A stretch of DNA of 12,953 nucleotides from Thiotrichaceae bacterium (lineage in GTDB: Bacteria; Pseudomonadota; Gammaproteobacteria; SZUA-229). The stretch is taken from the NCBI GenBank assembly GCA_002746365.1, contig NVWZ01000004.1, forward strand, positions 24,197 to 37,149, read 5' to 3'. The notes under the pieces were generated by a model. That model saw only the letters and a program-made list of their open reading frames with translations. It was not told the DNA's origin and ran no database searches. The position numbers and the translations under genes were made by a program. The number at the start of each line of letters is the position of its first letter. The stretch's first letter is position 1. Below are positions 4,336 through 12,270 of this stretch, piece after piece.

Positions 4336-4444
4336 TAAAACCGTTAATACACGGTACTTAAGCACCTATTACACGTAGCTTAGGCACTTATTACACGCCA
4401 CTAAAGCCGTTAATACACGGTGCTTAGACACCTATTACACGGCG
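4336..4444 (+). repeat. Five tandem iterons with exact 22-bp spacing
   Basis: Units begin at 4336, 4358, 4380, 4402 and 4424. Units 2, 3 and 5 read CACCTATTACACG or close variants, while units 1 and 4 carry CCGTTAATACACGG, so there are two sub-types. The 22-bp period puts the units on the same face of the helix, as expected for cooperative initiator binding. Confidence 0.9.
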
Positions 4445-4852: not shown

Positions 4853-5908
4853 TTATGCTTTTATAGCTAAGATACGGAAGCTTTCCGCCCTACCCGTTCC
4901 TGTGATATCCGCATCAAGTAGATAGCCTGCTGACTTCAATTCTTCTAACGCCTTTTTGAAGTTCTTTTTCATGCTACTTTTACGGCAGCTGTATCCAATG
5001 GAAAGCGCAATATCATCAAGTTTGTTTAATTTGGTGAGCTCTTTATTTCTATTGCTAAGTTGACCACTGAGATATCGATGTAGCGCTTTAGCTAAAGATG
5101 TTTTTAGTTTCTTGCGAATATCCCAATCCACGTAGGTGTACTCTTCTTCTAACCAGTACGTAAAAACGGGAGAAAACTGGCCATAGATAATTCCATCTGT
5201 TGAATATCTTTGCCATTCGACATCGAGAAGTTTTATAGCCTTACCTATTTCACAATGTCCTAGATAACGATCATGTTTGTTTAGTTTTAAGACGAGTGTT
5301 GCGCTACTTAATCTTTCGATTGATTCAATGATACGTTTTCTTTCACGACCACCATCTGATAACTCTAGTTCCTTAAGGATCTCACTGACAGTACAGAGCA
5401 CTGCATTAACATGTACTTTACCTTTTTCATCGGATTTATATGTTATTGGGACTGAGATTGGTAACTTATTGCGTTCACCGCTAAGTCGCTTTTTGGATAA
5501 GCGAGATAAGCAGTACATAACATCTTCATCGAAAACACATAAGTTAGCACCGTAGCGCTTCCCTTCTCCAAAGGGTGTTTCAAATGGCAATGCATTATCA
5601 TCGTCCAGAAATTCTTTTTGCTTTGCCTTTGGAATAGGCATAAATAAGGGTATGCGTGTAAGCAGTGTTGGAAGTGCGTTTTTACTAGCAATTGGAATTG
5701 CATCAAACAGACCAAGTTGCTCATTCTGGTAAAGACTTTCTTCAGCAAGTTCAACCAGCTTGTTACTGGTCAGCCCATTTGTGGATTTTTTCTGCGGAGG
5801 TACTTGAGCTATATCTTCAAGTTCCGATTCTATTGATTGACGCTCGTTACTCCGTTCAGCAACTTTTAGCCCGAGCTCGTTTAATTTGTTAGCTAATCCT
5901 GTGCTCAT
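4853..5908 (-). CDS. repA: Plasmid replication initiator RepA
   Basis: A 351-residue protein of the RepA/TrfA-like group of iteron-binding initiators. It should bind the adjacent iterons, open the origin and recruit host DnaA and helicase. After a variable polar N-terminus (1-75), the conserved body has LPISVPITYK (about 149-158) and a first winged-helix region. A stretch then reads GQFSPVFTYWLEE (243-255) with VDWDIRKKLKTSLAKALHRYL (260-280), which is typical of the family. A second winged-helix segment follows at about 297-333 (LDDIALSIGY, KKALEELKSAGYLL). The start is supported by GAGGG about seven bases upstream of the ATG. The gene points away from parA, and the two share the 228-base region 5909-6136. 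No frame disruption was seen. The incompatibility group cannot be named from sequence alone. Confidence 0.9.
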   Translation of the reverse strand: MSTGLANKLNELGLKVAERSNERQSIESELEDIAQVPPQKKSTNGLTSNKLVELAEESLYQNEQLGLFDAIPIASKNALPTLLTRIPLFMPIPKAKQKEFLDDDNALPFETPFGEGKRYGANLCVFDEDVMYCLSRLSKKRLSGERNKLPISVPITYKSDEKGKVHVNAVLCTVSEILKELELSDGGRERKRIIESIERLSSATLVLKLNKHDRYLGHCEIGKAIKLLDVEWQRYSTDGIIYGQFSPVFTYWLEEEYTYVDWDIRKKLKTSLAKALHRYLSGQLSNRNKELTKLNKLDDIALSIGYSCRKSSMKKNFKKALEELKSAGYLLDADITGTGRAESFRILAIKA

Positions 5909-8695: not shown

Positions 8696-8712
8696 TTGCC
8701 CGCAACGGGCAA
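8696..8712. promoter_or_regulatory. Candidate parS site 1
   Basis: TTGCCCG, three bases, CGGGCAA is a perfect 17-base dyad 15 bases after the parB stop. The same arms recur 35 bases downstream and I saw no other copy in the window. GC-rich dyads directly after parAB are the usual place for a centromere site. Confidence 0.6.
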
Positions 8713-8724
8713 AACAACAAACTG

Positions 8725-8762
8725 GAGCAGTTGCCCGTCGCGGGCAATTGCTCTTTTTTTTT
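8725..8762 (+). terminator. Rho-independent terminator of parAB containing parS site 2
   Basis: GAGCA, a G-U pair, TTGCCCG, a three-base loop, CGGGCAA and TGCTC form a 13-pair stem, followed by nine T residues (8754-8762). The stem is unusually long and GC-rich for this AT-rich region. Its inner part (8731-8747) is the second copy of the TTGCCCG dyad, so the DNA site and the RNA terminator share bases. Confidence 0.85.
8731..8747. promoter_or_regulatory. Candidate parS site 2
   Basis: It has identical seven-base arms to site 1 but a different three-base centre (TCG instead of CAA), which suggests that the arms rather than the centre are under selection. The start-to-start distance is 35 bases. 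Confidence 0.6.
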
Positions 8763-9529: not shown

Positions 9530-9558
9530 ATCATACTCCGGCGGTAGTTGTTTGTCAC
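9530..9558 (-). promoter_or_regulatory. Promoter of the ParB-like regulator gene
   Basis: On the minus strand GTGACA (9558-9553, 5 of 6) and TATGAT (9535-9530, 5 of 6) are separated by 17 bases. Transcription would begin near 9523, giving a leader of about 36 bases. The -35 box lies inside the dyad at 9550-9567. Confidence 0.6.
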
Positions 9559-9567
9559 ATGACAAAC
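9550..9567. promoter_or_regulatory. Operator-like 18-base dyad overlapping the -35 box
   Basis: GTTTGTCACATGACAAAC has perfect eight-base arms around two bases. A protein bound here would block RNA polymerase at the promoter of the ParB-like gene, so repression (possibly by its own product) is likely. The binder is not known. Confidence 0.6.
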
Positions 9568-9725: not shown

Positions 9726-10322
9726 ATGCTATTAAACAGTAAATTAAGGGAGGAGTCGTCAAGGGCTATATCCTCTATATTGGTCACGGCTCTAGAGGCG
9801 TGCCGCCAGGGTGATGTAGAGCTGGTTGAAAGTCTAGGGTTGTCTTTAGAAACCATGCAGCTGCTGGATCAGCTTAAGGCAGATCAGATTGTAAATATCT
9901 CAGGTAATTATATGCGCGACCAGACGCTTATGGATGTCTTTATCTTTAATTCTGAAAAGATGGCCAAAATTATCGAAATTGCTGCTGAGGAAACAAAGCA
10001 GTTCGAATTGGTCGATGATTACCTGCGAAGGGGCGCTTGTAAAAAAATGATGAATGATCTGTTTGGTATGCGTTCCACTCAAATAGCTAACCGTAAAAAG
10101 TTTCTCGGCATCCCAACAGTCAAAGGCCGAATTACCGTTACGACCTCAGATGAGCAACGCCAAGTATATGATGCCTGGTTAGCCGCTATCAAAACACCAG
10201 ACTACCGTGAAAGATTATTGCTGGTTTCAACAGAAACCGGGCTAATGCTATCGAAGATTTACCGTGAAGTTCTAATAATCGAAGAAATCCAAAATCAATC
10301 AAACAAGCGCATCTGCGCATAA
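9726..10322 (+). CDS. DUF2857-like (FlhC-related) putative transfer regulator
   Basis: This 198-residue protein resembles the DUF2857 proteins found next to the partition genes of PFGI-1 class elements. The diagnostic part is LRRGACKKMMNDLFGMRSTQIANRKKFLGIP (about residues 100-130), an FlhC-like helix-turn-helix core, followed by VYDAWLAAIKTPDYRERLL. As I recall, the ICEclc member BisC acts with a ParB-like partner, BisD, as an FlhDC-type activator of the transfer genes. If that holds here, this protein would activate transfer together with the divergent ParB-like protein. That is inference from resemblance and position. AAGGA lies nine bases before the ATG. The stop codon overlaps the ribosome binding site of the next gene, so the two are co-translated. 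Confidence 0.68.
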   Translation: MLLNSKLREESSRAISSILVTALEACRQGDVELVESLGLSLETMQLLDQLKADQIVNISGNYMRDQTLMDVFIFNSEKMAKIIEIAAEETKQFELVDDYLRRGACKKMMNDLFGMRSTQIANRKKFLGIPTVKGRITVTTSDEQRQVYDAWLAAIKTPDYRERLLLVSTETGLMLSKIYREVLIIEEIQNQSNKRICA

Positions 10323-10332
10323 GGAGGTGGGC

Positions 10333-11157
10333 ATGAAAGATAATACACAGAGAATGGCATCTATTGAAACCAAGCAAGACATTGAGATTGAATTAGCCAC
10401 TCGTCCTGCAGTGCGTTTATTTCAAGGTCGTGAAAAGACAGCAAAACGCCATGGCATTTTAGGTCTGCCAGGTTTTAGTAAGATAATTCGCGGAATCGAG
10501 CAAGCAGTAAGAGATGATGATCCGTACGCAGATTATCACTTCCATCAAATTGAGCAGGCGATCGAAGACCTTACTTTTGATTTAGACGGTGAGCTAAAAG
10601 ACATTACTGCATTTATAGATGAGAATATCCCATCAGCTATGCGCCTGCCAGAGATCGGAAGTAAGAACCCAGTTGTTGTGCCAGTTAGATTTGCATCTCG
10701 TTTAGGTTTTCAATTGGTATATCAATTATTGAAAGTTGATCAGATAGTCTTAAAGGTTTTACTTGCCAATCATATTGGACTGCTTCCAAATAAGGAAAAG
10801 TTTGAAACATTGGCAAGAGTTGAGAAACGTGTTCGCGGAGTCTTCCATTTAGTATTCGCTTATCGTCATACTGGCGTTACCCGAGATGATATTGCGGCCA
10901 ATAATAAGAAGGCTCAGAAAGCAATAGAGTTTATGGGTGACCTAGAACATGGATATCTGAATGGTACAAACCGGTCGGATAATGCGCCACCGCTTCCACC
11001 AAAAAGACTTAAAACAATAATTGGGGATTTAGACCGTGACAAACCACTTAAGTCAAAAACAGAGAAATCCGAAGTGGCCGATCTTGAAGCTGAAATAGAT
11101 AAAGTCATCGATAAGGCTGATGCGAAAAAAACAAAAACCAAGAAAAAGGCCGCTTAA
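10333..11157 (+). CDS. Integrating conjugative element protein, PFL_4669 family
   Basis: A 274-residue protein that matches the PFL_4669 (TIGR03761, DUF1845-type) family, known only from the cores of PFGI-1 class elements and related plasmids; its function is not established. Diagnostic blocks are DDPYADYHFHQIEQAIEDL (about 62-80), NPVVVPVRFASRLGFQLVYQL and ANHIGLLP. The C-terminal 60 residues are lysine-rich and low in complexity (KKTKTKKKAA) and are probably disordered and nucleic-acid-binding. I choose the ATG at 10333 because AAGGAGG at 10321-10327 stands five bases upstream; a GTG at 10327 would overlap that site. The gene is ten bases behind the DUF2857 gene in the same operon, which is the family order in ICEs. 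Confidence 0.82.
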   Translation: MKDNTQRMASIETKQDIEIELATRPAVRLFQGREKTAKRHGILGLPGFSKIIRGIEQAVRDDDPYADYHFHQIEQAIEDLTFDLDGELKDITAFIDENIPSAMRLPEIGSKNPVVVPVRFASRLGFQLVYQLLKVDQIVLKVLLANHIGLLPNKEKFETLARVEKRVRGVFHLVFAYRHTGVTRDDIAANNKKAQKAIEFMGDLEHGYLNGTNRSDNAPPLPPKRLKTIIGDLDRDKPLKSKTEKSEVADLEAEIDKVIDKADAKKTKTKKKAA

Positions 11158-11216: not shown

Positions 11217-11332
11217 GCGTGGTTCAGAACCAGTCGGAAACGCGGTTCAGCACCGAGAAGTAATGTGGTTCAATAGCGGGCATAAGCGTGGTTCAAGACC
11301 AGAATATGTGCGTGGTTCAGGAGCGGATTTTC
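11217..11332 (+). repeat. Array of five 23-bp tandem repeats
   Basis: Units begin at 11217, 11240, 11263, 11286 and 11310. Each carries GGTTCA at the same offset (11221, 11244, 11267, 11290, 11314), giving steps of 23, 23, 23 and 24 bases. The best-conserved part is GCGTGGTTCAGNACC, and unit 1 contains the dyad GGTTCAGAACC. The units are unlike the origin iterons. The last unit covers the ribosome binding site (AGGAG) of the gene at 11334, so a bound protein could control that gene. Confidence 0.85.
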
Positions 11333-11333
11333 T

Positions 11334-11768
11334 ATGACATTTCCTTTAAATATAAATTTAATAATACCTTTTAAGGATAATAAGGGTGAGCGTATTAAAA
11401 TGTACTTAAGTAATATTGAGGTTTTTAAAACACAATTATTCGATAGAGTTGAAGAATTGAAATGTGAGTTGGATAGCCTGTTTGGGGATGTGTTTGAATT
11501 ATCAATTTCAGCCAGATCTGATGGCAGTACAAAAAAGTTTTTCTGGCGGTTCAAATCCAGGAAACAGGATAGGACTTTTAATCGGTTGCATGCTGAATCC
11601 GTTGTGGAGTATTTATCAAAGTTACATGACGATAGAAAATTACGGGTCAAGGAGATGGAAGTGGAATTAATCTACATTAATGCAAATCTGAAAGTATTAA
11701 AAAGTTTGAAAGATGCCGTTGACCAAACAAAGCAAGATAAGCAAATGCTACTACAAGCAAATATATAA
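11334..11768 (+). CDS. Hypothetical protein, 144 residues (possible DUF3158-like)
   Basis: I cannot name this protein with certainty. It has no signal peptide or membrane segment. Residues about 35-75 contain VEELKCELDSLFGDVFELS and then STKKFFWRFKSRKQDR, and the C-terminal half (about 85-140) is a long charged helix, probably a coiled coil. In PFGI-1 class elements the gene after PFL_4669 is often a DUF3158 (PFL_4670-type) protein of similar build, with a short F-x-R-W-like strand followed by helices, so that is the likeliest assignment. AGGAG lies ten bases before the ATG, within the last 23-bp repeat. The frame is intact. It is separated from the upstream operon by a probable terminator. 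Confidence 0.5.
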   Translation: MTFPLNINLIIPFKDNKGERIKMYLSNIEVFKTQLFDRVEELKCELDSLFGDVFELSISARSDGSTKKFFWRFKSRKQDRTFNRLHAESVVEYLSKLHDDRKLRVKEMEVELIYINANLKVLKSLKDAVDQTKQDKQMLLQANI

Positions 11769-11941: not shown

Positions 11942-12230
11942 CGTTAATCCGAGAATCCCACAGGTTGGGTTTTCAGATTAGCGTTCACTACAAAGACTTT
12001 GATTAATGCTAATTGGCTCTATTAGCAAGCGAGCGATTCTTGTAATAATGATGAAATATCGAGCGGCGTTTGTGTGGCGCAGCCATGCCGTGCATTAGCT
12101 ATAAGCCTGCACGAAAACCTAGGGGGAACAATGATCCACATGCCCCATAAGGATCTTACTGCAACATGGGTAATCGCTATACCCAAACTGTAATATCAAA
12201 ATGAAAAGCCTGCTTAATTGCAGGCTTTTC
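11942..12230 (+). ncRNA. Candidate structured RNA or leader upstream of pilL
   Basis: Successive hairpins can be drawn. At 11942-11983 there is a 19-pair stem with two mismatches and G-U pairs. TGCTAAT/ATTAGCA occurs at 12007-12027, CGTGCA/TGCACG at 12089-12113 and TGGGTA/TACCCA at 12167-12185, and the terminator closes the series at 12203-12230. Between 12122 and 12170, GGGG/CCCC, GATCC/GGATC and CCCAT/ATGGG pairings exclude one another. I match it to no known RNA family. Strand and start are inferred from the terminator, and no promoter was fixed. Confidence 0.35.
12203..12230 (+). terminator. Perfect intrinsic terminator hairpin upstream of pilL
   Basis: GAAAAGCCTGC and GCAGGCTTTTC form an 11-pair perfect stem around TTAATT. 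The 3' arm ends in four T residues and the DNA beyond stays T-rich. It lies about 100 bases before the pilL ATG and 430 bases after the previous gene, so it ends an unassigned transcript or attenuates pilL. The stem is symmetric and could act on both strands. Confidence 0.75.
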
Positions 12231-12243
12231 TATTTCAATAATT

Positions 12244-12270
12244 GGGTCAGTAATGCTAGACCCGAAAAAA
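12244..12270. promoter_or_regulatory. Dyad element upstream of pilL
   Basis: GGGTC, ten bases, GACCC, then GAAAAA. It shares 21 of 27 bases with 3717-3743 near traI and starts 85 bases (ends 58 bases) before the pilL ATG. The downstream -10 candidate (TAGTGT, 12294-12299) is weak, and no -35 stands 17 bases before it, as expected of an activator-dependent promoter. Confidence 0.5.

Follow-up and report, generated by a model that had tools for sequence, protein, structure and literature searches.

A close described counterpart of the site considered here comes from the IncC plasmids, which are of the MOBH relaxase class. The IncC origin of transfer (oriT) comprises about 150 bp of AT-rich, directly repeated sequence, located immediately upstream of mobI and overlapping the mobI promoters, and it was not found in the 11.6 kb around traI (PMC5587640). 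Repeated sequence is used differently in ICEclc, where a 27-bp motif is shared by eight of nine bimodal promoters; binding of BisDC to these promoters is unconfirmed (PMC9286271). Here, we analyze a phased array of short repeats in a 12,953-nucleotide (nt) stretch, called the window, of the 187,775-nt contig NVWZ01000004.1 from a Thiotrichaceae bacterium (positions are window coordinates unless stated otherwise). The array lies between a gene of the PFL_4669 family, whose product resembles the IncC activator AcaB, and a gene for a 144-residue protein. Together with an AT-rich element inside the latter gene, it looks like a single structure. This structure, found at one position across a family of conjugative plasmids of marine type, is probably where proteins dock to initiate or regulate plasmid transfer. 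We tentatively favor the view that this is a single-copy transfer-related site, most likely an oriT with an accessory-gene promoter in the manner of IncC oriT-mobI, a reading to which we give somewhat less than an even chance.

The initial annotation of this DNA had reported five GGTTCA units at steps of 23, 23, 23 and 24 nt, situated between a terminator and a small gene, with the fifth unit extending across the ribosome binding site of that gene. All of these points were recovered (Table 1): the GGTTCA copies start at 11221, 11244, 11267, 11290 and 11314, and unit 5 covers the Shine-Dalgarno-like GGAG ahead of the ATG at 11334. Across 100 dinucleotide-shuffled versions of the window, the longest phased chain of identical 6-mers had three members, and a chain of five never arose (0/100). 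The annotation gave too short a unit, since the repeat extends beyond the GGTTCA core to about 15 nt (GTGGTTCAGAACCAG). Unit 1 contains a perfect 13-nt palindrome, TGGTTC-A-GAACCA, and units 2-5 are less palindromic. Presumably because the units are too divergent, Tandem Repeats Finder at a score of 30 did not include the array (11217-11332) among its calls, and a simple scan found no sigma-70-like promoter within it. A separate iteron-like array at 4348-4442, close to the Rep-like gene, is built from a different unit, just as the annotation had maintained.

Is the array conserved? Lack of conservation in close relatives had been named as grounds for abandoning the idea, and the aligned relatives do keep the array. 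The comparison covered 15 loci in about seven lineages: the window, seven PLSDB plasmids that share the region (Vibrio tubiashii p123, Microbulbifer pTHAF38_a and five from Marinobacter), six loci from a scan of genome contigs, and one distant locus, G346; the array stretch of L006, L008, L030 and L031 duplicates that of other loci. In every case the position is the same, between the AcaB-like gene and the 144-residue gene, and a terminator-like stretch after the AcaB-like gene is followed by the array (15/15, with the terminator judged by eye). Thirteen of the other loci carry four or five related units each (TTGGATCAGAACCRG type), and G346 has a reduced, degenerate form. Five units are present in the window, L002, L003, L027 and L032 (one L032 unit being very degenerate), and four in nine Marinobacter-type loci. 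The unit sequence drifts between loci (GTGGTTCAGAACCAG, TTGGATCAGAACCGG, TTGGCTCAGTACCAG), with TGG-N-TCA retained and the next A and CC held less strictly. One copy of the cassette, in Marinobacter salarius R9SW1 (L031), lies near 4.19 Mb in a 4.6-Mb record titled complete genome; given this chromosome-sized record, the element may also occur in integrated form.

A strongly conserved part of the region is an AT-rich element just inside the 144-residue gene, which the initial annotation had overlooked. Its 38 nt show 0-3 mismatches across all 15 loci despite their coding position. The element is 84% AT, and its 40-mer ranks among the most AT-rich 0.02-0.11% in the three sequences examined. Across nine loci, all ten invariant residues within codons 4-16 are specified by one identical codon, versus 1 of 33 invariant residues at the other codons; when the distant G346 is included, the corresponding figures are 8/9 and 1/13. 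Nine of the 14 array loci entered this codon test (L004, L008, L029, L030 and L031 were omitted as near-duplicates, and the close pair L006/L007 was kept), and L036 was added in a second run. The GC content of the fetched loci ranges from 37 to 50%. This freezing of codons implies a constraint at the level of the nucleic acid, whether DNA or RNA. Alignments of 32 and 45 proteins show almost no variation in the encoded peptide, NINLxIPFKDN, which falls in an N-terminus predicted with low confidence (mean predicted local distance difference test score, pLDDT, of 62 for residues 1-10 and 67 for residues 11-20). The low-confidence prediction fits a peptide that would be dictated by the DNA.

Array and element are also held in a fixed register. 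Measured from the element core, units recur at distances of about 37, 61-62, 84-85, 106-107 and 128-130 nt, each constant within 1-2 nt. A unit is present at 37 nt in 14 of the 15 loci, at 61-62 nt in 14, at 84-85 nt in 13 and at 106-107 nt in 14, and the outermost position is occupied in 5/15. These counts involve a unit pattern relaxed by hand for single divergent units in L003, L032 and L050 (the G346 locus); at 37 nt, L029 has GGGATC, which the pattern did not catch. G346, with units at 71, 47 and 37 nt, is otherwise off the lattice. The reading frame of L032 begins one codon earlier, and the 37-nt spacing is nevertheless preserved. It is this fixed register, together with conservation at the level of DNA, that makes array and element look like one nucleoprotein site.

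How might such a site work? Under the proposed mechanism, array and element would act in cis as one single-copy nucleoprotein site, with four or five dimeric DNA-binding proteins seated on the lattice at about 37, 61, 85, 107 and 129 nt from the core and jointly bending or opening the AT-rich core. Considering that the site extends over the start of the 144-residue gene, and probably over its promoter, the array-bound proteins would also control that gene. The site would then be oriT or its relaxosome-loading part, the accessory factor would be either the 144-residue protein or the neighboring AcaB-like protein, and the AT-rich element would be the stretch recognized by the MobH relaxase complex. 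A more specific proposal, in which we place less confidence, is that the site represents a new oriT family for MobH plasmids with PFL_4669-type conjugation genes, characterized by four or five dimer sites on a rigid lattice, each at a constant distance from an AT-rich recognition core. The core would be embedded in the opening codons of an accessory gene, whose N-terminus would be dictated by the DNA site and not the reverse.

The oriT reading is favored because a single-copy site combines phased units, a frozen core, overlap with a small gene, linkage to MobH and a position at a block border. A MobH (TraI_2) relaxase homologue was found in all ten array-bearing genomes or records tested (best matches 50-72% identical), with the G346 homologue on a different contig from the array. 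The array site lies where the mobH/rep/par block meets the pil/tra operon, both in the window and in the plasmids that were read. Further support comes from retention of the array where the replication module differs (see below). The resemblance to IncC oriT-mobI is one of arrangement: in both cases a MOBH plasmid carries AT-rich repeats directly upstream of a small gene and away from the relaxase gene, overlapping the promoter of the small gene (probably so in the present case). The two differ in that IncC has 14-bp direct repeats plus inverted repeats, and in that the AT-rich core of the candidate site described here lies inside the gene.

Several observations weigh against an oriT. By hhalign, the 144-residue family is not similar to MobI (probability 0.2%), and we therefore do not class the site as an oriT of the IncC/SXT type, only as one that would work like it. 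The best match between the element and the IncC oriT region is 14/15 nt, equaled by 7 of 500 shuffles; for this reason, and because the match falls in a part of the region that was deletable without effect (PMC5587640), it lends no support. The conserved peptide could itself contribute some of the constraint on the element. Finally, searches for the element away from the cassette turned up no separate copy: in PLSDB only the same seven plasmids matched at E 1e-9 or better, with ten weak matches (E 0.01-0.6) uninspected; 369 genomes of the class gave two matches, both with the cassette; and 163 genomes of one family gave four, all of them known copies. The copy in G522 is identical to that of L004.

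The main rival to an oriT is that the site is an operator only. The array would then serve the 144-residue gene as its promoter/operator. Cooperative binding of the 144-residue protein, the AcaB-like protein or the DUF2857 (BisC-like) protein would tune a transfer gene, and the AT-rich element would be a second regulatory or RNA-level signal. This would account for the place of the array and for the regulators next door, including an AcaB-family protein encoded nearby. The initial annotation had offered an operator array for the PFL_4669 or 144-residue product as one of its readings, and an operator or other nucleoprotein site near these genes fits. Transfer-program activators, however, have sites at many promoters, as with the shared ICEclc motif (PMC9286271), whereas the present motif forms a single array. 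A scan of the 187,775-nt contig at a score of at least 12 gave 13 matches apart from the array, every one of them within an open reading frame; the total of 18 lies inside the range of column-permuted controls (5-22), and there is no further intergenic match at that score. With this single intergenic location on the contig, the array is not the operator of a regulon. A chain of at least three units was found at none of seven distant PFL_4669/AcaB loci (L038-L044), in a test that is not strong, as it also misses the degenerate L032 and G346 arrays, and no similar repeats were found upstream of the putative IncC acaDC operon. An operator alone would also leave the frozen AT-rich stretch within the reading frame unexplained. 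We regard this explanation as possible but on the whole somewhat unlikely.

The anatomy of array and element also recalls an origin of replication, since iteron-type vegetative origins have direct repeats about two helical turns apart beside a very AT-rich stretch, and the array steps are mostly 22-25 nt. Two other marks of such an origin, co-inheritance with the Rep protein and a switch in GC skew at the site, were absent. A homologue of the window Rep occurs in only one of the 11 array-bearing genomes or records, namely G346, and in its place in the backbone p123 and pTHAF38_a carry an unrelated gene of the RepB family; the replication module is thus exchanged between relatives while the array persists. 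The cumulative GC-skew minimum, determined on this one contig, falls at contig position 30402 (window 6206, at rep/parA), about 5 kb from the array at contig position 35415. Given the other Rep family in array-keeping relatives and the turn of the skew at rep/parA, the array is probably not the main replication origin, and a Rep-bound form of the second origin that the initial annotation had allowed for is disfavored on the same two grounds. Perhaps the site is instead a second, Rep-independent origin, with iterons and an AT-rich unwinding element opened by a protein of the DUF2857/AcaB/144-residue group. Relatives of the DUF2857 protein are annotated as pathogenicity-island replication proteins, and the copy within the 4.6-Mb L031 record would suit such an origin; the Rep distribution counts less against it than against a Rep-bound one, and the skew minimum lies elsewhere. 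We consider it improbable. A centromere, also foreseen by the initial annotation, is less probable still. Plasmid centromeres are typically phased arrays of partly palindromic sites, which is how this array could be described, and the ParA here is SopA-like, so that the array might be the parS of the plasmid ParAB system. A better parS candidate, however, is found directly behind parB, where 17-nt palindromes (TTNCCCGNNNCGGGNAA, TTGCCCG...CGGGCAA type) occur at 8696-8712 and 8731-8747 and nowhere else on the contig. Five such palindromes lie behind parB in L005 and six in L028, at 34-nt steps; the remaining 8 of the 11 scanned sequences lacked the exact pattern, and among them L002, L003 and L006 have shorter TTCCC...GGGAA palindromes at the same place (by eye). 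The 17-nt palindromes are likely to be the parS centromere, and with such palindromes adjoining parB the array is probably not one. Least credible of all, and already disfavored, is the view that the array is degenerate repeat DNA of no function and that the conserved stretch merely reflects a conserved peptide. The drift of the units, the missing outermost unit in nine Marinobacter-type loci and the near-invariance of the peptide would all agree with it, but the frozen register, the frozen synonymous sites in loci of such varied GC content and the low confidence of the predicted peptide structure do not.

No description of such an array beside these genes, of which the initial annotation had likewise known none, and no described oriT for MobH plasmids with PFL_4669-type transfer genes were found in the limited collection of literature searched. 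Origins of transfer and operator arrays are both known kinds of site; what would be new is the family, and a core written into coding sequence. With a conserved, clonable site of about 200 bp, the transfer question becomes directly testable, and the site would help to recognize mobilizable elements riding on these plasmids. The frozen codons offer an example of a DNA signal shaping the start of a protein, and for that reason a near-invariant N-terminal peptide should not be taken at once as a functional protein motif.

Table 1. Features of the array region and related genes, in window coordinates
Feature	Position	Strand	Remarks	Basis
Rep-like protein	4853-5908		relatives on Methylomonas and other plasmids	
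DUF2857 protein	9726..10322	+	domain of ICEclc activator subunit BisC	PMC7423338
PFL_4669/AcaB-family protein	10327..11157	+	Pfam PF08900; likelier start ATG 10333	
Terminator-like stem-loop	11182..11202	+	between AcaB-like gene and array	pattern scan
Array unit 1	11219..11233	+	GTGGTTCAGAACCAG; perfect 13-nt palindrome inside	
Array unit 2	11242..11256	+		
Array unit 3	11265..11279	+		
Array unit 4	11288..11302	+		
Array unit 5	11312..11326	+	over ribosome binding site; TGG 37 nt before core of AT-rich element	
144-residue protein gene	11334..11768	+	predicted long helix, beta hairpin, long helix	
AT-rich element	11343..11381	+	CCTTTAAATATAAATTTAATAATACCTTTTAAGGATAAT; conserved as DNA; codons 4-16 of 144-residue gene	alignment of loci

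The protein encoded ahead of the array belongs to PF08900 (E 7.7e-52), and its model matches the crystal structure (PDB 6n8a) of AcaB, which activates the acr-acaCD operon of IncC, at 15% sequence identity; the PFL_4669 product is in this sense a structural relative of AcaB. What is shared with BisDC, the transfer-competence activator of ICEclc, is the DUF2857 (BisC) protein (PMC7423338), encoded here directly before the AcaB-like gene. No candidate gene for BisD was found in the window between the 197-residue regulator and the DUF2857 gene. Pfam, NCBIfam and PHROGs gave no convincing match for the 144-residue protein.

A further palindrome, TTGTCACATGACAA, lies at 9552-9565, before the gene of the 197-residue regulator, a ParB_C-domain protein, and relatives have copies of TAGTCAYRTGACTA at the same place. 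Palindromes of the form T[AT]GTCAYRTGAC[AT]A precede this gene in one to three copies in 10 of the 11 sequences scanned; none was found in L045, a partial p123 stretch that does not include the gene. G346 has two. They are likely to be the operator of the regulator itself.

On the other side of the array, between the 144-residue gene and pilL, the stretch 11960-12230 is a candidate conserved structured RNA, with 41 predicted pairs of which 11 show two-sided changes (eight sequences). Folded as a single sequence, the window copy of this region did no better than shuffles. A possible pseudoknot, GGGG..GATCC..CCCC..GGATC, is found in 10/10 stretches, the pattern having been derived from these same sequences, with GGGC..GCCC in G346. 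A strong stem follows at 12203-12230 and is terminator-like by scan on the minus strand only. Upstream of pilL, at 12244-12263, there is a conserved dyad of the GGGTCA-N8-TGACCC type, with matching two-sided changes in some loci (by eye). In G346 (contig 93, L050:3273-4601), two genes lie between the 144-residue homologue and the RNA region; as read from the translation only, the first resembles an HNH-type nuclease, with a possible partner gene beside it.
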